Shown one piece after another: positions 1-54,582 of a DNA stretch of 56,395 bases. The DNA lies in the NCBI GenBank assembly GCA_030611105.1, contig JAUWQL010000005.1, positions 1-56,395 of the forward strand, written 5' to 3'. The notes under the pieces are model-generated. The model had not been told where the DNA came from, searched no databases, and saw only the letters and a list, made by a program, of their open reading frames with translations. Source of the stretch: Bacteroidales bacterium. GTDB lineage: Bacteria > Bacteroidota > Bacteroidia > Bacteroidales > UBA12077. Position 1 is the first letter of the stretch, and each line of letters starts with the position of its first letter. The position numbers and the translations under genes were made by a program.

Positions 1-123
1 GCTTAGCGCCTGCCTGCCGCAGGCAGGGATTTGTTAACTGGTAGATAATAAGACTGTTAATTTTTGAAGTGTTTTGTAAAATTAACCGCTTAGCACCTTT
101 TTTTACTAAATTGAATTTACATA
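1..123. repeat. composite intergenic repeat upstream of the amylase
   Basis: Positions 1-32 contain a GC-rich palindrome (GCCTGCC..GGCAGG core) preceded by GCTTAGC. Positions 88-102 contain a second block, GCTTAGCACCTTTTT. The same two blocks occur in the same relative order, inverted, at 39066-39165: the first matches at 31 of 32 positions, and CTTAGCACCTTTTT matches exactly. The DNA between the blocks is not similar. No convincing promoter for the downstream gene was found. The function is unknown; it looks like a member of a dispersed intergenic repeat family. Confidence 0.6.
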
Positions 124-2880: not shown

Positions 2881-2889
2881 TTTTGATTA

Positions 2890-3483: not shown

Positions 3484-3501
3484 AAAACTGCATTATTTGT
3501 A

Positions 3502-3523
3502 CAACGCACATTCCTGTGCGTTG
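3502..3523 (+). terminator. short stem-loop after the GGDEF gene
   Basis: A perfect 9-bp stem (CAACGCACA / TGTGCGTTG) with a TTCC loop lies 18 bp after the GGDEF stop codon. It is followed by a weak T-rich run (GTTTGTT). It could end the amylase-GGDEF transcript, but it may simply belong to the cluster of palindromic repeats that continues to 3706. Confidence 0.4.
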
Positions 3524-3584
3524 GTTTGTTATTAAATGAAATTGTATAATCTGCTTGCTGGAAGACCAATGTCAATAAGTTAAC

Positions 3585-3709
3585 AGATTCCGCATCAAGT
3601 GCGGAATGACAGGAGCTGTGAAAAGGCACTTCTGCCTGTCATTCCTGCGAAAGCAGGAATCTATTTTGTTTTAGATTCCTGAACTTCGTTTCACTTCGTC
3701 AGGAATGAC
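3585..3709. repeat. cluster of three short palindromes
   Basis: Three hairpins stand in a row: ATTCCGCA/TGCGGAAT (3587-3607), ATTCCTGC-gaaa-GCAGGAAT (3641-3660), and ATTCCTGA/TCAGGAAT (3675-3706). Each is joined to the motif AATGACA or its complement. This has the look of a dispersed intergenic repeat known from many bacterial genomes. It lies between convergent genes and contains no plausible gene. Confidence 0.7.
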
Positions 3710-3770
3710 AATTATTAATATTCTGAATACTTTTAGTAATATTTAAATTATGCCAGACAGCTCTGGTTAC

Positions 3771-5150
3771 TTATTCGGTTTTAAAAACTTTATATCCCCA
3801 GGCTTCAAGTTTATAGTTATTTGAAAACTCTTCGCCTGTAAATAATTCGGTTAACTCAATATTAATCGGATTTGTAAATTCGAATTCTATTTCCTCTGGT
3901 GATAAATTCAAAATTGTAATAATCTGGTTGTCATCTTTTGTACGTGAGAATGCAAAGATTTTGTCATCGGCAGTTGTGGTAATTCTCTCCATTGTTCCAC
4001 CAAAATCGCCATTCCAAAGTGCCGGGTTTTCTTTTTTCAATTTGAGAAGATCAGTATATAATTCTTTCAGGCAACATTCTTTTTCCCAGTTTATAGTATC
4101 TTTTTCAAAGAACAAAAGCTTCTTATCTAAACATGCTTCCTGTCCGCTATATATTAAAGGCATTCCAGTAGCCGTAACCGACAAAACAGCAAATACTTTT
4201 GTTGCATCTCCTAATCGTTCAAATACAGTTCCTTTCCACGAGTTCTCATCATGGTTACTGGTAAAGTTCAGCCTGTAGTCAGATGAATTGTATTTAGTTT
4301 TTTCAGTTTCGTATTGATTAACTAAATCATCAACTGTTTTTTTACCTTGAGCAATTTCATTCCATATAAAATGCATAGTCCATGCATATGTCATATCAAA
4401 GGCATACTCGTGTAACTCAGGTTCATCAGCTTCGGCAAGCATAAAAACAGGTTTTATTTTATCAAGTTCATATCTTGCATTGTTCCAAAATTCAACAGGA
4501 ACCATTCCGGCAACATCACACCTGTAACCATCAATATTAAAATTCTTAACCCAGTATTTTAATGCATCAATCATATAATCCTGCATTTCAGGAATTTCAT
4601 AGTTGAAACCTGCTACATCAGACCAGTCTGGAACCGGAGGAATAATATTACCTTCTCCATCTTTTTTGTACCATTCCGGATGTTTATTTATTAACTCATT
4701 ATCCCAGGCCGAATGATTTGCAACCCAATCAATTATAACATACATTTCTAGTTCATGTATTTTATTGATAAGATTTAAAAAATCTTCTTTGGTTCCAAAC
4801 TCAGGATTAATTCCATAATAATCTTTTACAGCATAATAACTACCCATTGTTCCTTTCCTGTTTTTTTCTCCAATCGGGTGAATTGGCATTAACCACAAAA
4901 TATCAGTTCCTAATTCTTTTAACCTGGGTAAATGCTCGGCAAAGGCATTAAAGGTTCCTTCAGGAGTATATTGTCTTATATTAACTTCATATATACTTAG
5001 ATTCTTACTCCATTCTACATGTTTAACCTTTTGATATTCGGTATTTTTTTCTTGATTATTTGTTGCAGGCTTACATCCTACAAACAAAGTTAAAGTTAAG
5101 ATGTAGATTATCAACGTTTTGGCTTTAAGTGTCAGCTTTTGTGTTTTCAT
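3771..5150 (-). CDS. GH13 alpha-amylase family lipoprotein
   Basis: 459 residues, a compact GH13 enzyme. The N-terminus is a lipoprotein signal with lipobox LFVGC (Cys26), placing it in the periplasm or on the outer membrane. The catalytic barrel starts near residue 50 and has all four conserved regions: D141WVANH146, GYRCD with nucleophile D212, acid/base E240 (FMLAE), and H300-D301. A short C-terminal beta domain follows (about 380-459). There is no CBM48 domain, unlike its two neighbours. It probably trims malto-oligosaccharides made by the secreted amylase at 124-2880. It is transcribed alone and divergently from phosphofructokinase, with 204 bp between the starts. Amylase, cyclomaltodextrinase or neopullulanase activity are all possible. 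Confidence 0.88.
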   Translation of the reverse strand: MKTQKLTLKAKTLIIYILTLTLFVGCKPATNNQEKNTEYQKVKHVEWSKNLSIYEVNIRQYTPEGTFNAFAEHLPRLKELGTDILWLMPIHPIGEKNRKGTMGSYYAVKDYYGINPEFGTKEDFLNLINKIHELEMYVIIDWVANHSAWDNELINKHPEWYKKDGEGNIIPPVPDWSDVAGFNYEIPEMQDYMIDALKYWVKNFNIDGYRCDVAGMVPVEFWNNARYELDKIKPVFMLAEADEPELHEYAFDMTYAWTMHFIWNEIAQGKKTVDDLVNQYETEKTKYNSSDYRLNFTSNHDENSWKGTVFERLGDATKVFAVLSVTATGMPLIYSGQEACLDKKLLFFEKDTINWEKECCLKELYTDLLKLKKENPALWNGDFGGTMERITTTADDKIFAFSRTKDDNQIITILNLSPEEIEFEFTNPINIELTELFTGEEFSNNYKLEAWGYKVFKTE

Positions 5151-5354
5151 GTTAAATAATTTTGAATTTTTATAATATTAAGGTCTTAAAATTGTGATAA
5201 ATCAAGCTTTTTGTTATTTTTACCATTGCTAATTTTGCTTTTTAAAGATAATATATTATAAGCAAAAAATTGCATGAAATGCAGACTAATTAAAGAGAAT
5301 AGAGTGTTTTCTCCCCTAATAAAAATAATTAAATAATCAAATAAAAAAATTACA

Positions 5355-6449
5355 ATGAAACGTGTTTTAATTGCAACAGCGGGTGGAGATTGCCCCGGTT
5401 TAAATGCTGTTATAAGAGCAATTGTAAAAAGAGCATCTCGAGAACGTGACTGGGAAGTAATAGGAAGCATACAGGCTTTTAATGGAATTTTGTGGGAACC
5501 TACAGAAATTAAGATATTAGATGAACAAGCTGTAGCAGGAATTCATTTCCGAGGAGGAACTATTATTGAGACTACAAACAAAGGAGGTCCTTTTGCCTGG
5601 CCAATAAAAGACAAAAATGGAAAATGGTCAACGGTTGATCGTTCCGAAGAAATGATTCGTAAACTTATGTATATGGGTGTTGATGCCGTGATAAATATAG
5701 GAGGTGACGGTTCACAGCAAATATCTCAGGCTTTGTATGAAAAAGGGTTAAATATAATTGGTGTTCCGAAAACTATTGATAATGATTTATTGGCAACTGA
5801 TACCACTTTTGGATATCAAACTGCTATTCAGATTGCTACTGAAGCTGTTGATAAATTAGTAACTACTGCGGCCAGTCATAATAGAGTTATGGTTCTTGAA
5901 GTTATGGGACGCGATGCAGGCTGGATTGCCATGAATGCTGCTGTTGCAGGCGGTGCTGAGATTTGCCTTATTCCTGAAATACCATACGACATTGACAAAG
6001 TTCTTGAAAAAATCAATAATAGGTTTAGAAGAGATCGTGGATTTACTATAATTGTTATTGCAGAAGGTGCTAGTGCCATTGGCAAGGAGAGTTCAAAAGA
6101 AAAGAATGATGAAATAGGATATAGGAATGCTAAATTATCTGGTGCTGCTTCCAGACTTGTTGAAGAGTTAAAAGAAGCTGGAATTAAGCATGATATGCGT
6201 AAAGCGGTATTAGGACATATTCAACGTGGAGGAGTTCCAATTGCTTATGACCGTGTTCTGGCAACACAGTTTGGAGTGCATGCCTTTGAAATGGTATTGG
6301 AGGGTAAATTTGGAGAAATGGTTTCGTATCGTCATCCTTATATTACATCTGTTCCATTTAAGGAAGCCATTAAAAACCCAAATTTAGTAACTCCGGATAC
6401 AGCATTAATGATAAATGCCCGAGGTGTTGGTATTAGTTTTGGAGATTAA
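5355..6449 (+). CDS. pfkA: 6-phosphofructokinase
   Basis: 364 residues. It phosphorylates fructose-6-phosphate to fructose-1,6-bisphosphate in cytosolic glycolysis. Visible motifs are GGDCPGLNAVIR (10-21), GGDGS (116-120), PKTIDND (138-144, containing the catalytic Asp) and MGRDAGW (about 184-190). A Gly in GGDGS argues for ATP as donor, whereas the Lys in PKTIDND is more typical of PPi-type or mixed-clade enzymes. This G/K combination is known from ATP-using group III PFKs, so ATP is likelier but not certain. A -7-like TAATTTTG is at 5230-5237, but its -33 partner is poorly spaced. A clear terminator follows. It lies between starch genes, which fits shared use in glucan catabolism, though it is probably a housekeeping gene. 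Confidence 0.93.
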   Translation: MKRVLIATAGGDCPGLNAVIRAIVKRASRERDWEVIGSIQAFNGILWEPTEIKILDEQAVAGIHFRGGTIIETTNKGGPFAWPIKDKNGKWSTVDRSEEMIRKLMYMGVDAVINIGGDGSQQISQALYEKGLNIIGVPKTIDNDLLATDTTFGYQTAIQIATEAVDKLVTTAASHNRVMVLEVMGRDAGWIAMNAAVAGGAEICLIPEIPYDIDKVLEKINNRFRRDRGFTIIVIAEGASAIGKESSKEKNDEIGYRNAKLSGAASRLVEELKEAGIKHDMRKAVLGHIQRGGVPIAYDRVLATQFGVHAFEMVLEGKFGEMVSYRHPYITSVPFKEAIKNPNLVTPDTALMINARGVGISFGD

Positions 6450-6466
6450 ATATTATTTATAAAAAT

Positions 6467-6504
6467 AAAAACGGCACTTAAAAATATAAGGGCCGTTTTC
6501 TTTT
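6467..6504 (+). terminator. pfkA: rho-independent terminator after pfkA
   Basis: The stem AAAACGGC (6468-6475) pairs with GCCGTTTT (6492-6499), followed by CTTTT. It lies 18 bp after the pfkA stop and between convergent genes. The A-run on the left means it may also serve the leftward maltose operon ending at 6524. Confidence 0.8.
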
Positions 6505-6523
6505 GTTCAAATTAACTCTCTTC

Positions 6524-8875
6524 CTAATTGTTGTTCAGAATTTCAAATGAGAAAGCTTTTAAATTTATAATTAGTTGATTTTCTTCATTTAAAGTATAAT
6601 TGTTTTTGAAGTTAGAATTCCAAACATTATAGTTTAAAGATTCCGGTAAATCAATTGTGATATACTTTTCATGACCGCTTTTATTAAAGGCTATTATACT
6701 TACTTCGTCGAAATATTTTCTTGCATAAACTAAACTCTCATTATCGGAGTACAAAATAATGATATCGCCATAAATGAGTTCCAGATTATTTCTTCGTAAC
6801 TTAACTATTTTACTTGTATTATCTTTTACTAACTTTTCAAGTTTTGTTAAGTTATCAAACTTCATAGGCCTTCTGTTATCCGGATCTCCAGCTCCCGGCA
6901 TACCTATTTCGTCGCCGTAATATATAACCGGAATGCCTGGAATCGTATTTATAAAAGTAGTTACTTGTAATAGTCTGTAATATCCGGCTGTATCCTTAAT
7001 CTGAATATCTCGATTCCATCCTGCTTCTTTATCATCTTCATCAAATTTTAAAGCCCCGCTTGCAAAAGTGATAAATCTTGGAAGATCGTGATTTCCGGTA
7101 ATATTACCCATTAGAGAATGATGTCCATAATATTTTAAACTTTCTTTAAGTGATGCTGTTAGGTTTGATAAAGGTTCTGATTCCTGGGCAAAATTATTCC
7201 GCATATCAAAATACAGATTAAAATCAAACTGGCCGTCTAACATATCTGTACCAACATAACTTCTGATTAGTTCCCGGCTTCCAAAAGTTTCTCCAATCTG
7301 GAAAATGAATTCTTTATTAGTTCCATCTCTTAGTTTTTTCGTTAGAGATCTCCAGTATGGTTTAGGAATGTGTTTGGTGGCATCGTGTCTGAATCCATCA
7401 ACATTATAATTGTCGATCCAAAATTTAGCCGAATCAGACATTAATTCTTCAACTTCAGGAATATCAAAGTTTAAAGTAGGCAGAAAAGTATCGAACCAGG
7501 TTGTTAGCCTATGCTCATCCCAAATTCTGATATTTTTTGTGCCATCAGGTAAATCAAGAGTTGTAGCCCATTCAGGATGTGTTTGGTATATTTTATTTTT
7601 TTCGTGAACATGATTTGAAACATAGTCCAGGATGATATTCATATCATTTTTGTGTGTAACATCAACTAAAGTATGTAAATCATCAGGGTTGCCGAACCTA
7701 TGGTCTATAGTTGTTAATGTTATTGGCCAATATCCATGATATCCTGAATATTTTCTATGAGGCGCAGGATACTCAACATAACCTTCAAGCGGATTTTGAG
7801 TAATAGGAGAGAGCCATATCATGCTTATTCCTAAGTCAGAAAAATATCCATCATTTACTTTTTCTGTAATTCCTTGAATATCTCCTCCCATGTAGTTAGC
7901 CTTTTCGGCAATTTCCAGATCATCAATTGGATTGTCTATTTCTTTATTCCCGTTATTAAATCGATCTACAAGCATAAAATAAAGAACTTGTGCATGTTTG
8001 TCGGTACGTTTAATTTCGGAGATATCAGAAATTACCTTGCCATAGTTTAACGGAATTAAAATATCATTCGAATATCCATTTTTATTACATGCCCATACTC
8101 TTATAAAAGATCTTTCCTTTGATTTAGCAATATTCGGAATTGTAATTTGAATTTTATTTTCAATAATTTTTGTTGGAATTGAAAAATTGTCCCAAAGAGC
8201 AATTATTGAGTTAATATTGCCAGATAGATTGATATTAATTTGATCATTAGAAAAACTATCAGTTAAAAGTTTAGGTGCATTAACATTCGGATCATCAATA
8301 GTTAATACGGAATTAAATCCTCCTATATTATTACTTTCTTTTACAGGATTTGCGGGATCAAGCATCCATTTTTCATCAACAACCAGTTGATAATGATATT
8401 TACCGGGTGCAAGTTTTAATTTATATTTCCAAACACCTTCTTTTAAAATAAAGTTTTCGCCGGGTGTCCAGGCATTAAAGTTTCCGGCAATTTGTACTGT
8501 TTTATAATCTCTGTTTTTTGGATCAAATTGAATTGTATATTCTACTTTTTTATCGAGCAATATTACAAGTGAATATGAATAACTATTTATCCAAACCGTT
8601 AGTTTTTCAATTGCTCTTGCATTTTCCGATGGTGAGATTTTTAACCGTTTTTTATCTTTTGTCAGATCAGCAGTATAATTTATAATAGTTACGGAATCTA
8701 TTAAATCAGCTTTTTTTAAATAACCATTAAGAAATATATCAGTTCCTTCTTCACTTGCATAAACCGGTGATGCAAACTCATACATTTCTGAATCTATAGG
8801 AATTTTGGTGTTATTCTTTATACAGCTTGTAAAAGCTATAACAACTGTTAAAACAATAAGGATAATTTTTTTCAT
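6524..8875 (-). CDS. GH13 amylase-family lipoprotein with CBM48-like domain
   Basis: 783 residues. The lipoprotein signal has its lipobox ending at Cys18 (AFTSC). Two N-terminal beta domains include a glycogen-binding-like E-set at about 115-195 (TVQIAGNFNAWTP). The GH13 barrel runs about 285-690 and ends with a beta domain. Conserved residues are D417xxxNH422, GFRHD with nucleophile D498, acid/base E529 (QIGE), and H596-D597. It resembles neopullulanase/cyclomaltodextrinase-type enzymes but is longer because of the extra N-terminal domains. It is the last gene of the leftward operon MFS-pgmB-GH65-GH13, starting 12 bp after the GH65 stop. The lipoprotein signal places it outside the cytoplasm, where it would produce maltose for the symporter. 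Confidence 0.9.
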   Translation of the reverse strand: MKKIILIVLTVVIAFTSCIKNNTKIPIDSEMYEFASPVYASEEGTDIFLNGYLKKADLIDSVTIINYTADLTKDKKRLKISPSENARAIEKLTVWINSYSYSLVILLDKKVEYTIQFDPKNRDYKTVQIAGNFNAWTPGENFILKEGVWKYKLKLAPGKYHYQLVVDEKWMLDPANPVKESNNIGGFNSVLTIDDPNVNAPKLLTDSFSNDQININLSGNINSIIALWDNFSIPTKIIENKIQITIPNIAKSKERSFIRVWACNKNGYSNDILIPLNYGKVISDISEIKRTDKHAQVLYFMLVDRFNNGNKEIDNPIDDLEIAEKANYMGGDIQGITEKVNDGYFSDLGISMIWLSPITQNPLEGYVEYPAPHRKYSGYHGYWPITLTTIDHRFGNPDDLHTLVDVTHKNDMNIILDYVSNHVHEKNKIYQTHPEWATTLDLPDGTKNIRIWDEHRLTTWFDTFLPTLNFDIPEVEELMSDSAKFWIDNYNVDGFRHDATKHIPKPYWRSLTKKLRDGTNKEFIFQIGETFGSRELIRSYVGTDMLDGQFDFNLYFDMRNNFAQESEPLSNLTASLKESLKYYGHHSLMGNITGNHDLPRFITFASGALKFDEDDKEAGWNRDIQIKDTAGYYRLLQVTTFINTIPGIPVIYYGDEIGMPGAGDPDNRRPMKFDNLTKLEKLVKDNTSKIVKLRRNNLELIYGDIIILYSDNESLVYARKYFDEVSIIAFNKSGHEKYITIDLPESLNYNVWNSNFKNNYTLNEENQLIINLKAFSFEILNNN

Positions 8876-8887
8876 TATTTTCTTAAT

Positions 8888-11200
8888 TTAATTACAGTAA
8901 AATTCTATTGATTCTCTTTCTTTTATGTTGTATTCTACACCACGGATAAATACTTTGGCAGGTTTTCCGTTTTGATTCATGACAACAATTTTTTCTTTTG
9001 TAACTTCAACTTTTATATGGTTTCCCCTGTATTTTACTATAAACGAATATAATTTCCATTTTTCGGGGATGAATGGATTAAAATGCAATTCTTCATTTTT
9101 TAATCTCATGCCTCCAAAGCCTTCAACAATAGACAGGTACGCCCCAGCCATACTTGTAATATGCAAACCCTGATCAACTTCATCGTTATAATCATCAATA
9201 TCTAACCGCGCTGTACGAAGGTATAACTCATAAGCTTTTTCCTTGTATCCTAACTTTGCTGCTAATATATTATGAATACAAGGAGACAATGATGATTCAT
9301 GAACAGTTTTGGGCTCATAAAAATCGAAGTTTCGCTTTATAGTGTCTAAATCGTAATTCTCCTCGAACAAATAAATTCCTTGTAAAACATCTGCTTGTTT
9401 AATAAAACACGAACGCAATATTCTGTCCCACGACCATTTTTGATTTATTGGACGTTCTTTAGGATCAAGGTCTATAACATTAATTAATTCCTTATCCATA
9501 TAGCCGTCTTGCTGTAAGAAAATTCCGAGATCTTCATTTTCAGGAAGATACGCTTTGTCAAGAATGTTTGTCCAGATTCCAACTTCTTTTAGTTCATTAA
9601 AACTGATTTTTTCTTTAAGTTTTTTATATTTCTCAGGAGCCAGGCTTTGAATTTTAGTAATTGATTTAAGAGTGTAGTCTAAACACCATAAGGCAATAGT
9701 ACTCGTGTACCAGTTATTATTTACATTATTCTCGTACTCGTTCGGTCCTGTTACTCCGAGCATTACATATTTATTTTTTTCTCGGGAGAAGTTAAAGCGT
9801 TGTGCCCAAAAACGGCTAATAGCAATTAAAACTTCCAGTCCGTAATCTTCTAAGTATGATTCATCGCCGGTGTATCTGGTATAATTATATATTGCATAAG
9901 CAATTGCTCCATTGCGATGTATTTCTTCAAAAGTTATTTCCCACTCGTTATGACATTCTTCACCATTCATGGTTACCATTGGGTATAATGCGGCACCATC
10001 GGTAAACCCTAACTTTTCTGCATTTTCAATTGCTTTGGGTAAATGTCTGTATCGATATAATAAAAGGTTTCGTGAAACTTTTTTATCTGATGTACGCAAA
10101 TAAAATGGTAAGCAATATGCTTCGGTATCCCAGTATGTGCTACCGCCATATTTTTCGCCGGTAAATCCTTTAGGCCCGATATTTAATTTTTCATCGTCAC
10201 CTGTATATGTCTGGTATAACTGAAAAATATTAAACCTGATTGCTTGTTGCGCGGCAACGTCACCTTTTATTACAATATCACTATCGGTCCATTTGTTTTT
10301 CCAGGCATTTGCATGTTCTGCAAAAAGTTTATCGAATCCTTTTTCGTAAGATCTTTGCAAAACATTATGAGCTGCCATCATTAATGTTTCTTTATCATGA
10401 TTTTCAGAATTTGTTATAGCAGCATATTTATAAATGGTAATAATATCATCCGGCTTAATATCTAACCTAACACTCTGAGCAATATATTTCTTTTTTTGTT
10501 CTTCTTTTATATCATCATTTATTTCTGTTCCATTTTTTTCAATATTAAATTTCATGCTTGTGCAAACATGAAAATCCAGTTTTTTTGTTTTAGCAGTTAC
10601 ATATGCTTCTCCCGGTTTGCTTTCTATTGATATTTCTTCCCAGAATTTTTCCTGGTAATTAGAGTCTTCATTAATAACATCTGCATCAATGTATGGTATG
10701 ATAGTAATTTTATCATTAACACTTATACTTTTTATTTCATATTTAATACAACCAAGCTCATTTTCTGTTATACTAATAAAACGTTTAGATGTAACTTCAA
10801 TAATATTTTCATTGTCAAATTCTGCTGTAAAAGATCGTTCAAGGTAACCTTCTTGCATGTTTAAAACACGGCGGAAATTTTCAACTTTTACTTTAGAAAG
10901 GTCTAATTCCTTTTTTCCAACGATGATATTAATTCCAATCCAATTTGGAGCATTAAGAACTTTAGCAAAATATTCAGGATAACCGTTTTTCCACCAACCA
11001 ACTTTGGTTTTGTCGGGGTAATAAATTCCGGCAATATAGTTTCCTTGTAGTGAATTACCACTATATTTCTCTTCGAAGTTTGCTCTTTGTCCAATATGTC
11101 CGTTACCAAGCGAAAATATACTTTCAGAAGATCGTTGATTATCAGGATTAAATCCTTCTTCAATTATACACCAATCGTCATGTTTTAAATATTCGTTCAT
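8888..11200 (-). CDS. mapA: GH65 maltose phosphorylase-type enzyme
   Basis: 770 residues with no signal peptide, so cytoplasmic. GH65 enzymes of this type split maltose with phosphate into glucose and beta-glucose-1-phosphate. The N-terminal beta-sandwich (about 10-260) carries SLGNGHIGQRANFEE at 30-44. The (alpha/alpha)6 catalytic domain follows (about 310-690), with WDTE (357-360) and the acid-containing motif NGEECHNEWEITFEEIHRN (412-430), which is the maltose phosphorylase form. The neighbouring beta-phosphoglucomutase gene, 30 bp upstream, supports phosphorolysis rather than hydrolysis, because it consumes the beta anomer released here. Kojibiose, trehalose or nigerose phosphorylases share the fold, so substrate is inferred from motif and context. 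Confidence 0.9.
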   Translation of the reverse strand: MNEYLKHDDWCIIEEGFNPDNQRSSESIFSLGNGHIGQRANFEEKYSGNSLQGNYIAGIYYPDKTKVGWWKNGYPEYFAKVLNAPNWIGINIIVGKKELDLSKVKVENFRRVLNMQEGYLERSFTAEFDNENIIEVTSKRFISITENELGCIKYEIKSISVNDKITIIPYIDADVINEDSNYQEKFWEEISIESKPGEAYVTAKTKKLDFHVCTSMKFNIEKNGTEINDDIKEEQKKKYIAQSVRLDIKPDDIITIYKYAAITNSENHDKETLMMAAHNVLQRSYEKGFDKLFAEHANAWKNKWTDSDIVIKGDVAAQQAIRFNIFQLYQTYTGDDEKLNIGPKGFTGEKYGGSTYWDTEAYCLPFYLRTSDKKVSRNLLLYRYRHLPKAIENAEKLGFTDGAALYPMVTMNGEECHNEWEITFEEIHRNGAIAYAIYNYTRYTGDESYLEDYGLEVLIAISRFWAQRFNFSREKNKYVMLGVTGPNEYENNVNNNWYTSTIALWCLDYTLKSITKIQSLAPEKYKKLKEKISFNELKEVGIWTNILDKAYLPENEDLGIFLQQDGYMDKELINVIDLDPKERPINQKWSWDRILRSCFIKQADVLQGIYLFEENYDLDTIKRNFDFYEPKTVHESSLSPCIHNILAAKLGYKEKAYELYLRTARLDIDDYNDEVDQGLHITSMAGAYLSIVEGFGGMRLKNEELHFNPFIPEKWKLYSFIVKYRGNHIKVEVTKEKIVVMNQNGKPAKVFIRGVEYNIKERESIEFYCN

Positions 11201-11230
11201 TTGAAGGGATTATTTATAATTTTAGATTTA

Positions 11231-11890
11231 TTAATTCGTTAAATTTTCAATCATAAAAACATTGATATCGTTGAAATCAGGAATAACTTTATCAGCATTT
11301 GAAAGATTCTCATATTTGCCAACACCTATAGCCAGCATGCCTGCTTTTTTTGCAGCTTCTATTCCGGCTGCTGCATCTTCAAAAACCAAGCAATTTTCAG
11401 GATCAATATTTAATTCATTTGCAGCTTTTATGAAAACTTCAGGGTCTGGTTTTGAGTTGGTAATTTTCAGGCCATCAATAACAGAATCAAAAAATCCATC
11501 AAGACCAATTTTTTCTAATATTGTACCAGCATTTTTACTTGAAGATCCTATAGCTATTTTATAGTTTGTATTTTTAAGATCAATAAGAAAATTCTTAACT
11601 CCAGGAAGAATATCATTAGGAGTCATTTTCAATATATTTTCTCTGTACCATTTATTTTTTTTATTTGCCACACGATTTTTTTCTTCAGCTGAACTAATTT
11701 CAATTCCTCCTATAGAAAGCAAAATTTCTAATGATTCAAGTCTGCTAATTCCTTTTAATCTTTCGTTTTGTTCAGGGGTAAAATCAAATCCATATTCATT
11801 GGCTAATCTTTTCCATGCCTGGTAATGAAAAATGGCAGTATCGACAATAACTCCGTCTAAGTCGAAAATAATTGCTTTAATTTTTTGCAT
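11231..11890 (-). CDS. pgmB: beta-phosphoglucomutase
   Basis: 219 residues, HAD superfamily. It converts beta-glucose-1-phosphate to glucose-6-phosphate in the cytoplasm. The nucleophile motif DLDGVIVDT is at 10-18, the substrate-binding LKGISR at about 44-49, the phosphate-binding GSSSKNA at about 115-121, and FEDAAAGIEAAKKAGM near 168-183. DxD spacing and the cap-domain length fit the family. It starts 2 bp after the stop of the MFS symporter gene and is followed by the GH65 phosphorylase, the classical maltose phosphorolysis pairing. This context makes pgmB much likelier than a generic HAD phosphatase. Confidence 0.93.
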   Translation of the reverse strand: MQKIKAIIFDLDGVIVDTAIFHYQAWKRLANEYGFDFTPEQNERLKGISRLESLEILLSIGGIEISSAEEKNRVANKKNKWYRENILKMTPNDILPGVKNFLIDLKNTNYKIAIGSSSKNAGTILEKIGLDGFFDSVIDGLKITNSKPDPEVFIKAANELNIDPENCLVFEDAAAGIEAAKKAGMLAIGVGKYENLSNADKVIPDFNDINVFMIENLTN

Positions 11891-11892
11891 AA

Positions 11893-13395
11893 CTAATCTC
11901 TATCTTTTACAAATACAACCAAAATCCCTGCTATGACCATTGAAAAACCACCTAGTACCAATGCATAAATCGGTTGGTTACTAAACAGTGATTTAACCAG
12001 GAATCCTAAAATGCTTGCAGCTAAAATTTGTGGGATCACGATAAAGAAATTAAATATCCCCATATATACTCCCATTTTATGTGAAGGAAGGGATCCTGTT
12101 AAGATAGCATAAGGCATGGCAAGTATACTGGCCCAGGCTAAACCTATTCCAACAAATGGTAATAATAGCATTGTTGGATTATTAATCAAAAATATAGATG
12201 CTAAGCTTAAACCACCTATTATTAATGAAATTGAATGCGTAATTTTTCTATTGGTTAGTTTTGCCAATAAAATTAACAAGAAAGCAAAAAGTGCTGCAAA
12301 ACCATTGTAAATCCCAAAACAGATACCTACCCAGTTTGCGCCGTCATTATATAGTTCAGATGTCGGATCTGTTGTACCGTAAACATGACTGGTTACACCT
12401 GATGTAGTGTAAATCCACATGGCAAAAAGTGCGAACCACGAAAAGAATTGAACAAGAGCCAGTTGCTTCATTGTCGAAGGCATAGTGTTAAAATCTGAAA
12501 TTACAGCAACAAAGCCATTCTTTATTTTGCCCGATTGTTTTAACAATCCTGATGTTAGCTCAAGTAAACCGAAAAGGCTTAAACCTAAAGATAATATATA
12601 AACTTGTTCATCTACATGAATCAAGTATAAAATAAAGGTAAGAATTAAACCTGTTAACAGAAATATAGTTCCAATTTTAAAATCACTTTTAGAGTTTTTA
12701 ATATTCTTTAATTCTTCTTCTTTCATTTGCTCTTCCAGTTCTGTATCTGCAAATTCGGCTAATTCTTTAGGAGAGTATTCTTTAGTTGAAAAAACAGTCC
12801 ATAATACTGATGCAAGAAAAACGCCACCTCCAATATAAAATGCCAATTTAACCGATAAAGGAATTTCTCCGGCTGGAGCAGTATTCGAAATACCAAGCCA
12901 TTCTGTAAAAATGTAAGGTAGGAATGAAGCAATAATGGCTCCTGTTCCAATAAAGAAACTTTGCATACTAAATCCAATGGTTCTTTGTTTTGATGGAAGC
13001 ATATCGCCAACAAAAGCCCTAAATGGTTCCATTGATATATTAATAGATGCATCCATTATCCAGAGCATTCCGGCAGCTATCCAAAGGGCTGGTGAGTTTG
13101 GCATTATGAACAAAGCTATTGTGGCAAGTATGGCTCCTATTAAAAAGAATGGCCTTCTGCGTCCCAAGCGAGTCCAGGTATTATCGCTTAAATGTCCGAT
13201 AATAGGTTGTACTATTAATCCTGTTATAGGGGCGGCAATCCATAAAATAGGAATGTCATCTATTTTTGCTCCTAATGTTTCGAATATTCTACTTACGTTA
13301 GCATTTTGAAGGGCAAAGCCAAACTGAATTCCCAAAAAACCGAAACTCATGTTCCATATTTGCCAAAAACTCAATGATTTCTTCTCTTTTTTCAT
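11893..13395 (-). CDS. MFS sugar symporter (GPH/SLC45-like), probable maltose uptake
   Basis: 500 residues with about 12 transmembrane helices. The MFS loop motif appears as [17 protein letters not shown] (about 67-83), close to the sequence in sucrose/maltose proton symporters of the glycoside-pentoside-hexuronide/SLC45 type. It has a long charged cytoplasmic loop in the middle (about 200-235). It is the first gene of the operon and would bring maltose or malto-oligosaccharides across the inner membrane for GH65. A -7 element (13436-13443) and a LacI-like palindrome (13525-13534) lie upstream. Substrate is inferred from operon partners, not from the protein alone. Confidence 0.85.
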
Positions 13396-13435
13396 GGATT
13401 ATATTTGATAAAGAATTTAATAATTTCTATATATT

Positions 13436-13443
13436 CAAAGATA
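13436..13443 (-). promoter_or_regulatory. -7 promoter element of the maltose operon
   Basis: On the minus strand this reads TATCTTTG, a perfect match to the Bacteroidota -7 consensus TAnnTTTG and identical to the -7 of the promoter at 28511. It is 40 bp upstream of the symporter ATG. No TTTG is found at the expected 19-21 bp, so the -33 half is weak, which may mean that an activator is needed. Confidence 0.45.
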
Positions 13444-13524
13444 CGAAAAAAAAACAAAGAAACTATGCATGTAACTATAAAGCAGGTGATTACAAAAATC
13501 AGGAATAAGCCAAGAGTGTTGTTT

Positions 13525-13534
13525 CAAACGTTTG
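13525..13534. promoter_or_regulatory. LacI-family (MalR-like) operator candidate
   Basis: CAAACGTTTG is a perfect 10-bp palindrome with a central CG, extended by TTTC on the left and CGAAA on the right. LacI-family operators have this shape, and the published MalR/CcpA-type boxes share the AAACGTTT centre. It lies about 130 bp upstream of the maltose symporter ATG and about 85 bp beyond the -7 element. No other copy was noticed in the window's intergenic regions. No LacI-family gene is in this window. Confidence 0.5.
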
Positions 13535-13550
13535 CGAAATGAAAAAAAGT

Positions 13551-13601
13551 GCAGGATTTTTTTATAAAAAATCCTGCATCATTTATTTGATGCAGGATTT
13601 G
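13551..13601 (-). terminator. double hairpin terminator after the POT transporter
   Basis: Read leftward, AATCCTGCATCA pairs with TGATGCAGGATT and is followed by a run of T, a standard intrinsic terminator 27 bp after the transporter stop codon. A third copy of the arm (GCAGGAT at 13551-13557) can pair with the middle arm instead, so two mutually exclusive hairpins are possible. The palindromic operator candidate sits just beyond. Confidence 0.8.
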
Positions 13602-13627
13602 AGTTGTTATAATTTTAATGAGTTATT

Positions 13628-15151
13628 TTATTTAGCTACACGTTCAAGCCACTTGATCATAAACATGATTGTAAACATAGAAATTGCCGTCGCAACAATA
13701 AAGATACTCCAAGTCATCCAGATTGGAATAGTCTCATAAAGAATAGCACCAATAAATAATAATCCATTACCTAAAGCTGTTGCACCAAGCCATCCACCTT
13801 GCATCATTCCTTGATACTGTGGTGGAGATACTTTTGAAACAAATGAAATACCCATAGGACTTATGAATAACTCAGCAACAGTCAAAATAAAATAGGTTCC
13901 TAATAGCAAGAAAGGAGTTACTCGAAAAGTGTTTTCAAGAGGTACCCCACCCATTTGAGGATTAATAGTTTTAAACAAAGGTAATCCAAAAGAGCCAAAA
14001 GCCATTACAACAAATGCTAATGATGCTATACCCATACCGATAGCAATCTTTTTTGGAGTTGAAGGTTCCATACCCTTACTACGTAACCAGCCAAATATTC
14101 CAACTATAATAGGAGTTAAGAATACAACAAAAAATGGATTCATAGACTGGAATATCTCAGCAGAAAATTCCCATGTGCCAATTTTAAGTAAAGTATAATC
14201 TTTAGCAAATAGAGTTAATGTTAATCCATTTTGATGGAATGAAAACCAGAAGAAAATTACAACACCAAATACAGCTAATAACGCATACATACGTTGCTTA
14301 ATTTCTTTTGCTTCCATTTTAATTCCGTCTTTAGTATGCTCTGTACTTTCCCCAACTCCTTTTGGATTAGGGAATTTCTTTTTGTTTTTCATATAAATAA
14401 CAAGAGAAATAGCCATAGCTATAATTGCAGTAGCAAATGCATAATGAAATCCAGTATTAAATACATCTAAATAATTATTTGCAAATGCTGATAAATCAGC
14501 AACAGGAGCACCACTTGCTTTATCTGCGTACTCTTGAAATGATACTATAGATGATTCTGAAATTGAACCGTTAAGAAAACTATGACAATATTCAGGTAAA
14601 TTTGCATTATATTCTAATTTGTTTTTTCCTAACCACCAATTTCTCATAAGTATAGCTGCAATAGGAGCAAAAATAGCACCTATATTAATAAATGCATAGA
14701 ATAAAGAAAAACCAGAATCTCTTCTCGATTCATATTTATCATTATCATACATTTGTCCAACTAAAGCTTGTAAATTACCTTTAAATAATCCATTACCAAA
14801 AGCAATAACAAATAATCCTACTAATGAAATTGTTAGGAATAAAGGTACGCTTGAAACAGGAGTAGGAGTAGGAATAGCTAGGATGACATAACCCGCAGCC
14901 ATCAATAATAATCCCGCCAAAATGGTTCCTTTGTAATTCTTTAATTTATCAGCAATTATACCTCCTACTAAAGCTAGTATATAAATAGAGAAATAAAAGA
15001 TTGAGTAAATAATTCCAGCATTTGTTCCAGAAAGGCCAAATTTTGCTTGCAAAAACAGAACCAGTATTGCCATCATAGTGTAAAAACCAAAACGTTCCCC
15101 CATATTGGCTAGTGCTGCGGGAATTAATCCTTTCGGATGTCCTTTAAACAT
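13628..15151 (-). CDS. POT-family proton-dependent oligopeptide transporter
   Basis: 507 residues, MFS fold with about 14 helices. Family signatures are visible: the GERFGFYTMMAILVLFLQ segment near the N-terminus (ExxER proton-coupling motif region), GNGLFKGNLQALVGQMY around 118-134, and a FYAFINIGAIFAP segment around 149-161 (PTR2 signature). It imports di- and tripeptides with protons across the inner membrane. It is a single gene with its own promoter candidate (15206-15236) and terminator (13551-13601). Nothing links it to the sugar operon except position. Confidence 0.92.
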   Translation of the reverse strand: MFKGHPKGLIPAALANMGERFGFYTMMAILVLFLQAKFGLSGTNAGIIYSIFYFSIYILALVGGIIADKLKNYKGTILAGLLLMAAGYVILAIPTPTPVSSVPLFLTISLVGLFVIAFGNGLFKGNLQALVGQMYDNDKYESRRDSGFSLFYAFINIGAIFAPIAAILMRNWWLGKNKLEYNANLPEYCHSFLNGSISESSIVSFQEYADKASGAPVADLSAFANNYLDVFNTGFHYAFATAIIAMAISLVIYMKNKKKFPNPKGVGESTEHTKDGIKMEAKEIKQRMYALLAVFGVVIFFWFSFHQNGLTLTLFAKDYTLLKIGTWEFSAEIFQSMNPFFVVFLTPIIVGIFGWLRSKGMEPSTPKKIAIGMGIASLAFVVMAFGSFGLPLFKTINPQMGGVPLENTFRVTPFLLLGTYFILTVAELFISPMGISFVSKVSPPQYQGMMQGGWLGATALGNGLLFIGAILYETIPIWMTWSIFIVATAISMFTIMFMIKWLERVAK

Positions 15152-22821: not shown

Positions 22822-25800
22822 TTAGAATTTTATACCGATAAAAATTATATCATCAATTTGATATAATTTGCCTTTCCATTTTTCAAACCTTTCTTCCATG
22901 ATTTGCTTTTGGTCAGCCATAGGCTTGTCCTGGATTTCCAATAACAGCTTTTTTACATTTGTGCTCTTGAATTTAGTTTCTCCGGGTCCACCAAACTGAT
23001 CAACAAAACCATCGGAGAATATATAAATTGCATCACCTTTTTTAATTTTAATTTCGTGGTTTGTGAAACTATCTTTTTCAACATGATATATGCCAACTGG
23101 CATTCTGTCTGCTTTATATTCGTGCAATTCACCATCTCTGATTAGGTATAAAGGATTATAAGCCCCGGCATATTCAAGAATATTTTTCTTTTTATGTAAA
23201 ATACACAGAGCCATATCCATACCATCCTTATTTTCTCCTTCTTTACCGGTTTGGTGCAATGAGAATTTTATTTTTTCCCGTAATTGGTTAAGGATTTTGT
23301 TTGCTGTGAGTTTATCACTTTTGCTACCAAAAATTTCGTTTAGTGATGATATGCCAAGCATGCTCATAAATGCTCCCGGAACTCCATGTCCGGTACAATC
23401 AGCTGCAGTAAAATAGAGTTTGTCCTTATCTTCAGCTATCCAGTAAAAATCGCCACTAACAATATCGCGTGGTTTGAAAAGAATAAAATGATCACTAAAT
23501 GCATTATCAAAATGATCATTTATTGGCAAAACAGCATTCTGAATCCGGCTTGCATAATTTATGCTGGCGGTAATATCTTCTTTTTGCTCAAGAATCGTAT
23601 CATGTTGGACTATAATCTCGTCACGTTGAGTTTCAATTTCTTCTTTTTGTTCCTGAATTTCAATAGTTCGTTCTTTAACTTTTTGTTCTAAAACTTTTTT
23701 ATCATACTTTAATTTACGCTCCCTTATTTTTGATATAAATAAAAATAAGGCGATAATCCCAATTCCGATTAGCACATAAAATAAAGTGCTTTCTGTAAAA
23801 GGAGGTTCAATAATAAATTGGAACGATTTTATTTCGCTTCTGGTACCCCAAATATCTTTTGCTCTTACGTGCAGCGTATAATTTCCCGATTCAACAATTA
23901 AGTTAATATCCTGATTAATGCTCCATGCCGACCAGTCATTCATCAAACCCTCTACAAAGTACTGATACTTTGTGGAATTTTTCTTTAGATAATATGGAGC
24001 CATTATTTTAACATTAACAGCCTTATTTTCAGGATCAAATCTTAAATTTGAAAGTTCGAACGAAATCCCTTTTTCATTTTTAATATTATTAAAAAATACG
24101 TTAAAATTAGGTTTCAGAATTTTGAACCTGGAGTGATTTATTTTATATAACTGATTATTGTTATTTATAATCCAGATATTCTGATTATTATCAGAAATTA
24201 TCGATGAAATATTATCAAAGAGTTTTAAAATAGATTTTTCCTGTTCTGTCCATACATGTTTTGAATCTAAACATATCCAGTCATTTTCTTTTTTTACCCA
24301 GGGCACACTTTGCTGATTTAATAAAAACTTGAATCTGAATTGGTCCCCAAGATAATCCGATATGAAAAGTTTAAACGAATCTACTTTTATATCATAATAA
24401 TATAGATCTGATTCCAGGAATAAATAAAGTGAATCGTTAATAAAATCGAGTTTGTATTGTTCAGGATAATCAGTATTTACGCTATAACTTTTAAAATCTG
24501 TAGGTTCGCCAAGTGAGTCAATTAAAAAGGAGTAAACATGATCGTCTCCACCCAGCCATGCTTTATTTTCGTTTAAAATATTAATAGAATATACAGGTTC
24601 GGTAAAATCAACAAAACTATATTCGGGTTGCCATTTCTTATCTTTGTAAATTACCGAAAACAGTCCATCTGTAGTAGAAATATAATAACTACTCTTACCG
24701 GTTTTATCACTAATTTGATTTATATACCTGTTACCAACAATTTCATTTGATTTATGTTCCTCAATATGATAAAGACCATTATTCGAAGCAGCAAGTATGC
24801 CATGTTCGGTCGATACCAGTTGGTTACACTTATCATTAAGGCCTTCAACCTTTTTATATATATAATTAATTGCTTTTAATTTACTTATAGTCTTTTTTAC
24901 ATAGCGCGGCTTCGTTCTAGTAGTTTTTTTGGTTGATTCTGGTTTTTTTTCCTCGCCTGCCGGACGGGCAGGTTCTACTGCGGTTGTTTCTGTCTTTTTG
25001 CTAAAAAGTTTTGAAAATAATTTTCTTGAAGGTCGCTGTGTTTTGGTTTCTTCACTTTTTGATGTTTTAGTCGTTGTAGGTGTTCTTCTTCGTACAGGGC
25101 TGGTTTTTACCCAAATATCTACTTCGTTATAATCTTTAACCTCAGAAAGGTAATAAATACCTTCGTTTGTAGCTACATATAGTTCGTTATTATGCCAGAC
25201 AGATGAAATTAAGTTTCCTTTTAATCCCGGATAAGTTGTATAATTACGCAAGGGTAAATCGAAATCAACCCTGCTTACTCCAAATTCATGTGATATCCAT
25301 AAACCATTATTATTATCAAGTCCTAAAGAATAGATTTCATCGTCAGGTAATCCGTTCTGATAATTGACTGTGTAAACTATTTTTCCAGTCTTTTTATTAA
25401 CTACCTCTACACCACCATATAAGGTTCCGAAAGCATATAGAGTATCGGATATTATTTGTCCATCTGCTAAAATGCTTTCTTCTAAATAACCATCATCATT
25501 AATATCGTAATTGTAATATTTTATTCCGTCGAATGTGTATAATTCACTATTATCAGTACCGACCAATACTCTCTTATCATTATAAGGCAAGCTAAAAAGA
25601 ATTTCACTATTTTCGGTATAAAAGCCTGTTACAATAGGGAAAAGGGTATCGCTTTCCAATCGGTATAATCCCTCGCCATAAACATTAAAGAAAGTATTTT
25701 TATGGGTTGTGAGCATGCCAGTAAATGGTTTGAAATCTTCCGATTGCCATCTTTTATATTTTTCAGGATTATCTGTAAAATGACGTGTAATTGTTTTTTC

Positions 25801-26217
25801 TCCATAAAAGAAAATAGTTGAATCGGTAAAAATAATTTTAGAAATAACACCTATATCGGCTGTGTCTGACGATAATGATTTGTACTCAATAAATCCTTTT
25901 AAGTTTCTTTCAAGGTAGCCATAGTTATTATTGGCTCCGACATAAACCTTATTATCAAAAGGGTTTTTGTTAAGAGCAAATGGAATGTATGGAAGTTTAA
26001 TAATATCCCAGTTTTGCCCATCGAATGTAAGAATACCTCTTCGGTTAGCAAATAACATAACATTCTGGTTGTCCTGACTTATAGCCCAGTTTTGTGTCTC
26101 AATTTCTTTACACTCATTAAAATGAGTAATAAACGGAGTTCCATCTTGCGAGTATATATCTGTTATGCAAACTAAAGTAGCAAATACGAAAAGAAAATAT
26201 TTTATTCGTAATACCAT
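22822..26217 (-). CDS. two-component-type propeller sensor fused to SpoIIE/PP2C phosphatase
   Basis: 1131 residues. A signal peptide (about 1-24) leads into a long periplasmic beta-propeller of Reg_prop type (about 30-730), a Y_Y_Y-like beta-sandwich (about 735-800), one transmembrane helix (about 811-829), a coiled coil (about 832-885) and a cytoplasmic SpoIIE phosphatase domain (888-1131). PP2C metal motifs are intact: GDFYW (D922), ADCTGHGVPG, SDGFVDQ and a DD near 1123. It would dephosphorylate a Ser/Thr-phosphorylated partner, typically an anti-anti-sigma factor, in response to an outside signal. No partner gene lies nearby. The propeller is interrupted by a basic low-complexity stretch (about 375-450) that contains a palindrome-encoded PARPAG (24951-24972). 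It is monocistronic. Confidence 0.88.
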   Translation of the reverse strand: MVLRIKYFLFVFATLVCITDIYSQDGTPFITHFNECKEIETQNWAISQDNQNVMLFANRRGILTFDGQNWDIIKLPYIPFALNKNPFDNKVYVGANNNYGYLERNLKGFIEYKSLSSDTADIGVISKIIFTDSTIFFYGEKTITRHFTDNPEKYKRWQSEDFKPFTGMLTTHKNTFFNVYGEGLYRLESDTLFPIVTGFYTENSEILFSLPYNDKRVLVGTDNSELYTFDGIKYYNYDINDDGYLEESILADGQIISDTLYAFGTLYGGVEVVNKKTGKIVYTVNYQNGLPDDEIYSLGLDNNNGLWISHEFGVSRVDFDLPLRNYTTYPGLKGNLISSVWHNNELYVATNEGIYYLSEVKDYNEVDIWVKTSPVRRRTPTTTKTSKSEETKTQRPSRKLFSKLFSKKTETTAVEPARPAGEEKKPESTKKTTRTKPRYVKKTISKLKAINYIYKKVEGLNDKCNQLVSTEHGILAASNNGLYHIEEHKSNEIVGNRYINQISDKTGKSSYYISTTDGLFSVIYKDKKWQPEYSFVDFTEPVYSINILNENKAWLGGDDHVYSFLIDSLGEPTDFKSYSVNTDYPEQYKLDFINDSLYLFLESDLYYYDIKVDSFKLFISDYLGDQFRFKFLLNQQSVPWVKKENDWICLDSKHVWTEQEKSILKLFDNISSIISDNNQNIWIINNNNQLYKINHSRFKILKPNFNVFFNNIKNEKGISFELSNLRFDPENKAVNVKIMAPYYLKKNSTKYQYFVEGLMNDWSAWSINQDINLIVESGNYTLHVRAKDIWGTRSEIKSFQFIIEPPFTESTLFYVLIGIGIIALFLFISKIRERKLKYDKKVLEQKVKERTIEIQEQKEEIETQRDEIIVQHDTILEQKEDITASINYASRIQNAVLPINDHFDNAFSDHFILFKPRDIVSGDFYWIAEDKDKLYFTAADCTGHGVPGAFMSMLGISSLNEIFGSKSDKLTANKILNQLREKIKFSLHQTGKEGENKDGMDMALCILHKKKNILEYAGAYNPLYLIRDGELHEYKADRMPVGIYHVEKDSFTNHEIKIKKGDAIYIFSDGFVDQFGGPGETKFKSTNVKKLLLEIQDKPMADQKQIMEERFEKWKGKLYQIDDIIFIGIKF
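24951..24972. repeat. 22-bp palindromic element inside a coding sequence
   Basis: The 22-bp GC-rich unit (core GCCTGCCGGACGGGCAGG) matches the intergenic copy at 39371-39392 at 21 of 22 positions and the copy in tonB at 54195-54216 closely. In the sensor gene it encodes PARPAG on the minus strand within a low-complexity linker and keeps the frame open. Confidence 0.8.
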
Positions 26218-39065: not shown

Positions 39066-39165
39066 AAAAAGGTGCTAAGTGGCTTATTTTATCCTTCGAC
39101 AGGTTCAGAATAACGTTTAGTCAGCTTGTTAGTAAATCCCTGCCTGTGGCAGGCAGGCGCTAAGC
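39066..39165. repeat. composite repeat, inverted copy of 1-102
   Basis: AAAAAGGTGCTAAG at 39066-39079 and the 32-bp block at 39134-39165 are reverse complements of blocks at the window start. The spacing is similar, but the sequence between differs. Confidence 0.65.
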
Positions 39166-39171
39166 ACATAA

Positions 39172-39191
39172 CCTGCCTGTCGGCAGACAGG
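39172..39191. repeat. GC-rich palindrome
   Basis: CCTGCCTGTCGGCAGACAGG. A partial copy (GCCTGCCTGTCGGCAGATC) is at 47609-47627. Confidence 0.65.
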
Positions 39192-39370: not shown

Positions 39371-39392
39371 CCCCGCCTGCCGGACGGGCAGG
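39371..39392. repeat. 22-bp palindromic element (intergenic copy)
   Basis: This is the intergenic form of the element found in frame at 24951-24972 and 54195-54216, on the same strand as both. Confidence 0.8.
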
Positions 39393-52976: not shown

Positions 52977-53753
52977 ATGGAATGGTATCTTATTGTAGCT
53001 GTAATAGGAGTTGGTTTTATTGCGGGATTTATTAATACCCTTGCAGGTAGTGGATCTTTATTAACTCTGCCATTGTTGATGTTTCTTGGATTACCTGCTA
53101 ATGTTGCCAATGGAACAAACCGTATTGCAATTCTTTTACAGAATGTTGTTGGTGTTGCTAGTTTTAAAAAGCAAAAGGTACTGGATGTTAAACATGGATT
53201 ATGGTTAGGAATTCCGGCCGTTGTAGGATCTCTAATTGGAGCGCAAATCGCAATTAATCTGAACGAAGAGATCATGAGGAATACTATCGGTGGAGTACTG
53301 GTATTTATGTTTTTTCTAATAATATATAAACCCGATAAATGGATAAAAGAGAAAGCAGGGGAGGTTAATCCAAAGCCGGGTATATTACAAATGATTATTT
53401 TCTTTTTTATTGGAATTTATGGAGGTTTTATTCAGGCAGGAGTTGGTTTGTTTCTATTGGCAGGCTTGGTATTAGGAACAGGTCTTGATTTAGTGCGGGC
53501 AAATGCATTAAAAGTATTTATTATACTACTTTATACACCAATAGCATTGGTTATTTTTATGATCTATAACCAGGTTGATTATAAACTGGGATTAATACTT
53601 GCAGTTGGGAATATGCTTGGAGCATTTGTTGGAGCCAAAGCAACAGTAAGCTGGGGGCCAAAATTTGTTCGATATATACTTTTAATTGCTATATCGGTTT
53701 CAGCTATAAAACTTCTTGGATTATTTGATTTAATAAAATCTATTGTAGCTTGA
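52977..53753 (+). CDS. TSUP (TauE/SafE) family membrane transporter
   Basis: 258 residues with about 8 helices. The duplicated TSUP signature is visible near the start of each half: GFIAGFINTLAGSGSLLTLPLL (about 13-34) and GIYGGFIQAGVGLFLLAGLVLG (about 145-166). The family exports sulfite, sulfoacetate or similar organic acids; the substrate here is unknown. The last 14 bp overlap the end of the oppositely oriented tonB gene, so the two transcripts must share 3' ends. Confidence 0.9.
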   Translation: MEWYLIVAVIGVGFIAGFINTLAGSGSLLTLPLLMFLGLPANVANGTNRIAILLQNVVGVASFKKQKVLDVKHGLWLGIPAVVGSLIGAQIAINLNEEIMRNTIGGVLVFMFFLIIYKPDKWIKEKAGEVNPKPGILQMIIFFFIGIYGGFIQAGVGLFLLAGLVLGTGLDLVRANALKVFIILLYTPIALVIFMIYNQVDYKLGLILAVGNMLGAFVGAKATVSWGPKFVRYILLIAISVSAIKLLGLFDLIKSIVA

Positions 53754-54582
53754 AGAAATATGTAATAGTTCCTTTTTGATAAGCAGGAGCATCTGGTTTT
53801 TTATCAAATTTTGCTTTTAGTGCAGCTTTTTTAGCAGCAGACAATAAATTAGCATCTAAAGTTGTACTTCCTTTTACTCCCGAAACGGCATTGGTTACAT
53901 TTCCGTATTTATCAACGGTAATTTCAACAACAACTTTTCCTTCAATCTGGTAAATATATTCGGGTTTAGGCAGTGATTCAGGATTCCTGCCAGCAAGACT
54001 AAAGCTTGTACCGCTTGTTCCCATACTGTTTCCTCCAGCGTGATTTTGAGAATCTACAGAACCGGTTGTTGAACCTTGATTATCTTCTCCTGTTGTTTCT
54101 CCTTCGCTCGAACTGTTATTATTGTTTCTATTTCTTCCGGTAAATAAAGCTTGTTCGTTAACTTTTCTCTCTTCAATAACTTCCTTTTTTTCTTCCCCGC
54201 CTGCGGAACGGGCAGGTTTTTCAGGTTCCGGTTTTGTTTCAGTTTTTGTTTCTTCGGTTTTTTCTTTTTTGCCCTGTTCTTTTACAGCCGGAGCTTCTTC
54301 ATAATCCTGAGTGATTGAACCATCATCTGTAGGCGATGTTGTTGTTTCAGGAACAGATTCCTGATTTTCTTCGACGGATTCTTGTTGCACCGATTCAGAA
54401 TATCTTGGTTCAATCTGACCAAAGCCTTCATCACTGTCGCCAAAATTTATTAAGATACCTTCTTCATCAGGCAAAGGGAGAGGTGTTGAGTAACCAAAAA
54501 TCATAAAAACAGCACCAATAATTATATGAAAAATTATTGTTCCGATTATACCATTTTTATGTTCTCTGATCTTAAATGACAT
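53740..54582 (-). CDS. tonB: TonB-type energy transducer with palindrome-derived linker segment
   Basis: 280 residues. An N-terminal membrane anchor (about 12-30) is followed by a long disordered linker rich in Glu, Lys, Thr, Pro, then Asn/Ser/Gly (about 50-200), and a C-terminal TonB domain (about 210-280) with the usual VVVEITVDKYGNVTNA pattern. It passes proton-motive energy from ExbBD to outer-membrane receptors. The linker contains PARSAG encoded by a 22-bp palindrome (54195-54216) shared with a sensor gene and an intergenic site. It starts 1 bp after the exbD stop. Its 3' end overlaps the TSUP gene by 14 bp. Confidence 0.88.
   Translation of the reverse strand: MSFKIREHKNGIIGTIIFHIIIGAVFMIFGYSTPLPLPDEEGILINFGDSDEGFGQIEPRYSESVQQESVEENQESVPETTTSPTDDGSITQDYEEAPAVKEQGKKEKTEETKTETKPEPEKPARSAGGEEKKEVIEERKVNEQALFTGRNRNNNNSSSEGETTGEDNQGSTTGSVDSQNHAGGNSMGTSGTSFSLAGRNPESLPKPEYIYQIEGKVVVEITVDKYGNVTNAVSGVKGSTTLDANLLSAAKKAALKAKFDKKPDAPAYQKGTITYFFKLQ
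54195..54216. repeat. tonB: 22-bp palindromic element inside tonB
   Basis: Differs from the intergenic copy at 39371-39392 at two positions. Read on the minus strand in frame, it encodes PARSAG, the same frame as PARPAG at 24951-24972. Confidence 0.8.

Follow-up and report, generated by a model that had tools for sequence, protein, structure and literature searches.

A 21-bp palindrome, probably a non-autonomous REP-like mobile element, lies in frame in genes of a Bacteroidales bacterium and recurs across many phyla

The window, the whole 56,395-bp stretch of DNA that was analysed, is contig 58 of the 3.77-Mb draft genome (G000) of a Bacteroidales bacterium. It holds three copies of one 21-bp element family, CCCGCCTGCCGGACGGGCAGG, which reads CCTGCCCGTCCGGCAGGCGGG in the coding orientation of the host genes. 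Two copies lie in frame in genes and are exact insertions relative to same-genus orthologues: the copy at 24952..24972 (minus strand) encodes PARPAGE in a propeller sensor gene with Reg_prop and SpoIIE phosphatase domains (22822..26217, minus strand), and the variant CCTGCCCGTTCCGCAGGCGGG at 54196..54216 (minus strand) encodes PARSAGG in tonB (TonB_C; 53740..54582, minus strand), within an exbB-exbD-tonB cluster. The third copy, identified by sequence match, is intergenic at 39372..39392 (minus strand), upstream of a relA/spoT gene. The initial annotation had placed three copies of the same orientation at 24951-24972, 39371-39392, and 54195-54216, and all three are present there; its judgment that chance recurrence is very unlikely agrees with the 3 matches at up to three mismatches in the window, compared to 0.00 in window shuffles. 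As it had also claimed, both genic copies are read in one frame and continue into acidic and lysine residues, the minus-strand readings being PARPAGEEKK (sensor) and PARSAGGEEKK (TonB). The unit length of 22 bp given there has to be corrected to 21 bp, the length obtained from the empty sites in orthologues.

Three related GC-rich palindromes, for which no strand is given, accompany these copies in the window: CCTGCCTGTCGGCAGACAGG (39172..39191, intergenic) and two members of a sister family, CCTGCCTGTGGCAGGCAGG (39139..39157, intergenic) and CCTGCCTGCCGCAGGCAGG (9..27, at the contig end). The sister palindrome measures 19 bp, which is not a multiple of a codon, and none of its 17 sites is genic; since some of these sites belong to copies of a single longer repeat, this is weak support. 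A 38-bp inverted repeat (92%) of window positions 1-38 with 39128-39165, with the core CCTGCCTGC..GCAGGCAGG, ties the contig end to the intergenic region, and the longer repeat family GCTTAGCGCCTGCC...GGATTTGTT recurs elsewhere in the genome. What remains of CCTTCGACAGGTTCAGAATAACG, a common intergenic repeat, lies at 39090-39120; elsewhere, the 21-mer sits in such repeats.

The element is an imperfect palindrome that can be drawn as a hairpin with a 6-bp stem, a 5-base loop, and a CCCG end that is left unpaired. The end, CCCG/CGGG, is conserved, and the length is fixed at 21 bp. The 21-mer corresponds to seven codons and contains a stop codon in none of its six frames, so that the frame of the host gene is kept upon insertion. 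The flanks of most copies are unrelated to one another, and a profile of the flanks of all copies reveals no target consensus beyond weak trends.

DNA alignments with same-genus orthologues of the sensor, tonB, and glycyl-tRNA synthetase (GlyRS) genes served as the test for empty sites. All three genes contain exactly 21 extra bp with intact flanks and without a target duplication, the empty sites being GTAAAA^AAAGAA (GlyRS), GAAAAA^GAGGAA (tonB), and GTAGAA^GAAAAA (sensor). Among the aligned genomes, the inserts in the sensor and tonB genes are found only in that of the window, and the segment is precisely absent from the orthologues of close relatives, whose proteins are 88-89% (sensor) and 96% (tonB) identical. 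The observation that the initial annotation had named as a refutation, the same peptide encoded by unrelated codons in orthologues, was not made for either protein. The GlyRS insert is present in G000 and, at the shared position and with substitutions, in G023; it is found in no other genome aligned, including G015 and G020, placed together with G000 in the GlyRS tree (bootstrap of 98). This distribution implies that the GlyRS site was hit twice, lost its insert precisely once, or was recombined. Two further empty sites were read from the sequence of other repeats, a tRNA remnant (TGGTAGA^GCAACTCC) and an intergenic repeat (TTGAGCG^AAGTCGAAA).

In the genome of the window, CGCCTGCCGGACGGGCAGG has 45 matches at up to three mismatches, with 0 in a backward-read control, and the enrichment anticipated by the initial annotation is thereby confirmed. 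A survey of the genus at one mismatch found the 21-mer in 16 of 20 genomes, compared to 0 of 5 in the sister genus. The exact 21-mer occurs in at least 119 stretches of GTDB species genomes; the matches listed include Bacteroidota, Ignavibacteria, Parcubacteria and other CPR groups, Nitrospirota, Omnitrophota, Elusimicrobia, Bacillota, Planctomycetota, and others. Isolates of Mucilaginibacter, Flavivirga, Maribacter, and Aequorivita from different laboratories are among the exact matches listed, which argues against an assembly artefact. Copy numbers per whole genome at up to two mismatches reach 154, 102, 83, 40, and 38, with a control of zero in each case, and copies are shared with the Bacteroidales metagenome-assembled genomes CSMAG_3001 and CSMAG_801, from which a Bacteroidales genus is inferred as the source of the window. 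About half of the copies sampled in the own genus are genic (35/64), and some copies lie within duplicated longer repeats (L202). Viral contigs also carry the 21-mer. One of these, the prophage-like termite-gut contig IMGVR_UViG_2820306284_000004 (L238, positions 1-13963), is extremely dense in copies: its 14 kb carry 13, most of them in frame, and a single open reading frame of 1059 codons contains up to five.

Further host proteins in the own genome are the ribosomal proteins S1 (two copies), S16, and L17, a Glu/Gln-tRNA synthetase, PlsY, and a SPOR/HU protein (three copies); alanyl-tRNA synthetase (AlaRS) and threonine synthase are also among the host proteins. Comparison with solved homologues places exactly 7 extra residues in AlaRS (FGD-PARPAGG-YFK, three genera) and in GlyRS. 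In threonine synthase and MetRS, an insertion is likewise clear, but the edges of the gap are not placed as sharply. An AlphaFold2 model of GlyRS built with 17 close orthologues reached a mean pLDDT of 42 and is unusable, so that the position of the insert in this enzyme rests on the alignment to solved homologues.

Reading frames were counted in strict, deduplicated sets without genomes of more than 55% GC, which were excluded because genic calls based on open reading frames can err, notably there. In the own genus, the PARPAGG frame accounts for 12 of 20 genic copies (P=1.5e-5), and the flanks of genic copies consist of 37% Lys plus Glu, compared to 14% in the proteins of the window. Frame use in other taxa is also nonuniform (P=1.1e-5), with 22 copies read as RLPDGQ, 19 as PPAGRAG, 10 as PARPAGG, 6 as LPVRQAG, 5 as CPSGRR, and 2 as PACRTGR. 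Cysteine-containing frames are depleted there (7/64, with one third expected; P=3.4e-5), pointing to selection after insertion. These biases show that persisting genic copies mostly encode small, hydrophilic peptides (PARPAGG, RLPDGQ, and PPAGRAG), in the own genus within Lys/Glu-rich stretches. They are what the purging of damaging insertions would leave, and no benefit is shown; of the alternatives offered by the initial annotation, a palindrome tolerated in coding sequence fits the data, and one selected for is not demonstrated.

AlaRS presents a recurrent case. The enzymes of Chitinophagaceae and of a Mucilaginibacter (L406-L435) carry 7-residue inserts at FGD|YFK with the sequences PARPAGG, PNNPSAG, PDAPEEG, PAQPKAG, and PQNPEAG. 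The inserts of the P..P..G type other than PARPAGG, from other Bacteroidota, use other codons, and in the AlaRS gene tree insert carriers are scattered next to insert-free relatives. Three alaS genes from three genera contain the exact 21-mer with flanks that are only 68-76% identical. The scattered inserts in GlyRS and AlaRS need recurrent insertion, precise loss, or recombination, which the present data do not separate; the diverged AlaRS peptides may derive from old insertions that retained P..P..G.

Covariation between positions was analysed in 299 copies representing 67 variants against 500 shuffles, which do not remove the relatedness between copies. The terminal CGGG (positions 18-21) covaries with the internal CCCG (positions 5-8), with 27 changes on both sides compared to a shuffle mean of 2.0 and a maximum of 8; on distinct variants only, the values are 17, 3.9, and 10, respectively. 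No compensatory change was seen in the obvious stem, CCTGCC/GGCAGG, among the same 299 copies and 67 variants. Eight sites, all but one from the own genus, carry the change from C6-G20 to T6-A20. The sister palindrome does not account for it, but the sites may represent one amplified subfamily. The covariation from C7-G19 to T7-A19 could derive partly from the sister family, with its arms CCTGCCTG/CAGGCAGG. In IS608, the tetranucleotide at the end pairs with an internal guide tetranucleotide. The CGGG/CCCG covariation resembles this end/guide pairing of Y1 single-strand transposons, a likeness drawn from sequence comparison without biochemical data.

The search for a linked mobilizer gave no candidate. 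A GIY-YIG nuclease seemed to lie near copies of the element and was rejected as a partner: the 21-mer is missing from 30 loci of this GIY-YIG family, and the nearby copies inspected had inserted into repeats, tRNA-derived or other. At two loci (L121:4540-4910 and L033:1470-2015), GIY-YIG nuclease genes adjoin or sit between duplicated tRNA parts, which suggests a separate tRNA-associated element, and the tRNA remnants there carry the 21-mer or a relative. No recurrent neighbor gene suggestive of a mobilizer was found. Y1_Tnp, with nine matches in G000, was likewise rejected as a linked mobilizer: it was undetected in the draft genomes of three carriers with 154, 83, and 25 copies (G028, G047, and G041), and none of 39 Y1 loci, 9 in the own genome and 30 elsewhere, is flanked by the element. 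Taken together, the undetected Y1 gene, the lack of flanked Y1 loci, and the lack of a recurrent neighbor make a mover acting in trans most likely. Such an enzyme would move the element probably via folded single-stranded DNA, and the end would be recognized by pairing of the terminal CGGG with the internal CCCG, as in Y1 (IS200/IS605-type) transposases with guide bases. This scheme is inferred, its enzyme has not been identified, and it is put forward tentatively, at somewhat worse than even odds; an HUH-type single-strand enzyme is a best guess as the mover and not a result.

The explanation favored for the feature as a whole, with a probability of roughly 0.8, is a mobile palindrome that is REP-like and non-autonomous, measures exactly 21 bp, and keeps the frame in genes. 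The closest competitor, itself rather unlikely, regards the 21-mer as a REP sequence proper that is moved by a host REP-associated tyrosine transposase (RAYT, TnpA_REP). Its size, the imperfect hairpin whose unpaired 4-base end is conserved, the intergenic dispersion, the clean insertion without duplication, the end/guide-like covariation, and the Y1_Tnp matches in G000 would all suit such a system. So would the nesting in other hairpin repeats, although this targeting of hairpin loops is only a modest excess among intergenic copies (7/84 at a stem score of at least 7, compared to 0.7% of controls). The missing GTAG and CGTC tags, the three carriers in which Y1_Tnp is undetected, and the Y1 loci devoid of flanking elements speak against it. 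Spread solely by homologous recombination and by host genes or flanking repeats being transferred horizontally, without insertion of the 21-mer itself, is improbable: copies in duplicated longer repeats and the insertion common to the alaS genes of three genera, with flanks 68-76% identical, speak for it, and the unrelated flanks of most copies and the intact flanks at the empty sites of close relatives speak against it.

A mobile palindrome is also to be distinguished from a protein motif, namely a P..P..G loop that is conserved or has arisen by convergence and from which the likeness of the DNA would merely follow. The AlaRS inserts that share a site and use other codons are the one observation in its favor, and even these can be older, decayed insertions. 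All six frames of the 21-mer are in use, with unrelated peptides, and copies also lie between genes, which largely refutes a motif. Its third codon positions are conserved, and the peptide is missing in TonB, sensor, and GlyRS orthologues; a motif is very improbable. An assembly or library artefact of adapter-like sequence might be suspected since most of the genomes are metagenome assemblies and unrelated taxa share an identical 21-mer, yet isolate genomes carry it, diverged variants exist, the GlyRS copy of G023 combines the shared position with substitutions, and genic copies preserve the frame; an artefact can be practically dismissed.

Among known systems, Rickettsia palindromic elements (Ogata et al. 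2000) are either ∼150 bp long (RPE-1 type) or CGTC tagged (RPE-4 and RPE-6) and were described from Rickettsia (PMC10969869, PMC3733652). The comparison with them made by the initial annotation holds for behavior, that is, a palindrome that enters unrelated and often essential genes without shifting their frame, is absent in orthologues, and has intergenic copies as well. It does not extend to membership: the 21-mer lacks CGTC at the hairpin end, is not ∼150 bp long, contains no stop codon in any of its six frames, and is identical across many phyla. GTAG/CGTC-tagged REPs are dispersed hairpins of 20 to 40 bp with a 4-base unpaired end, the CGTC group being without a linked transposase (PMC3733652), and intragenic REPs occur in several species, including in tRNA synthetase genes (Di Nocera et al. 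2013, PMC3733652). The 21-mer is likewise a short, many-copy dispersed hairpin with a 4-base unpaired end that is sometimes genic, but it is free of tags according to the flank profile of all copies, ends in CCCG/CGGG, is fixed at 21 bp, and is genic in about half of the sampled own-genus copies. In contrast to RAYT/REPtron systems, it flanks none of the 39 Y1 loci inspected. With IS200/IS605 Y1 elements, for which TnpA_REP systems provide a further comparison (PMC8266576), it shares the absence of a target duplication and the hairpin, and the covariation hints at a pairing of end and internal tetranucleotides as well; it differs in that no associated Y1 gene was found, in lacking a clear target tetranucleotide, and in a size far below that of any known IS. 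Unlike a MITE, which has the terminal inverted repeats of a known IS and a target duplication, the 21-mer is a single hairpin without target duplication, the comparison with IS ends being limited to Y1 loci. A literature search, from which most subscription journals were excluded, returned no relevant match for the 21-mer or its peptides, the single PARPAGG match being unrelated. The CGGG/CCCG covariation is new here.

In-frame genic palindromes have so far been seen mainly as a peculiarity of Rickettsia, with scattered REP examples. The present data place one 21-mer in many phyla and in genes whose loss would scarcely be tolerated, with clean presence or absence between close relatives. For annotation, this is a warning that seven-residue insertions such as PARPAGG, RLPDGQ, and PPAGRAG can be mobile DNA and not protein motifs. 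It is possible, if short of an even chance, that a codon-sized element of many phyla, moved by an unidentified single-strand enzyme in trans via end/guide pairing, is a recurrent source of seven-residue inserts in essential proteins, recurring at one AlaRS site. With the present data, two old questions become testable: how tiny palindromes move, and whether they feed small insertions to protein evolution.
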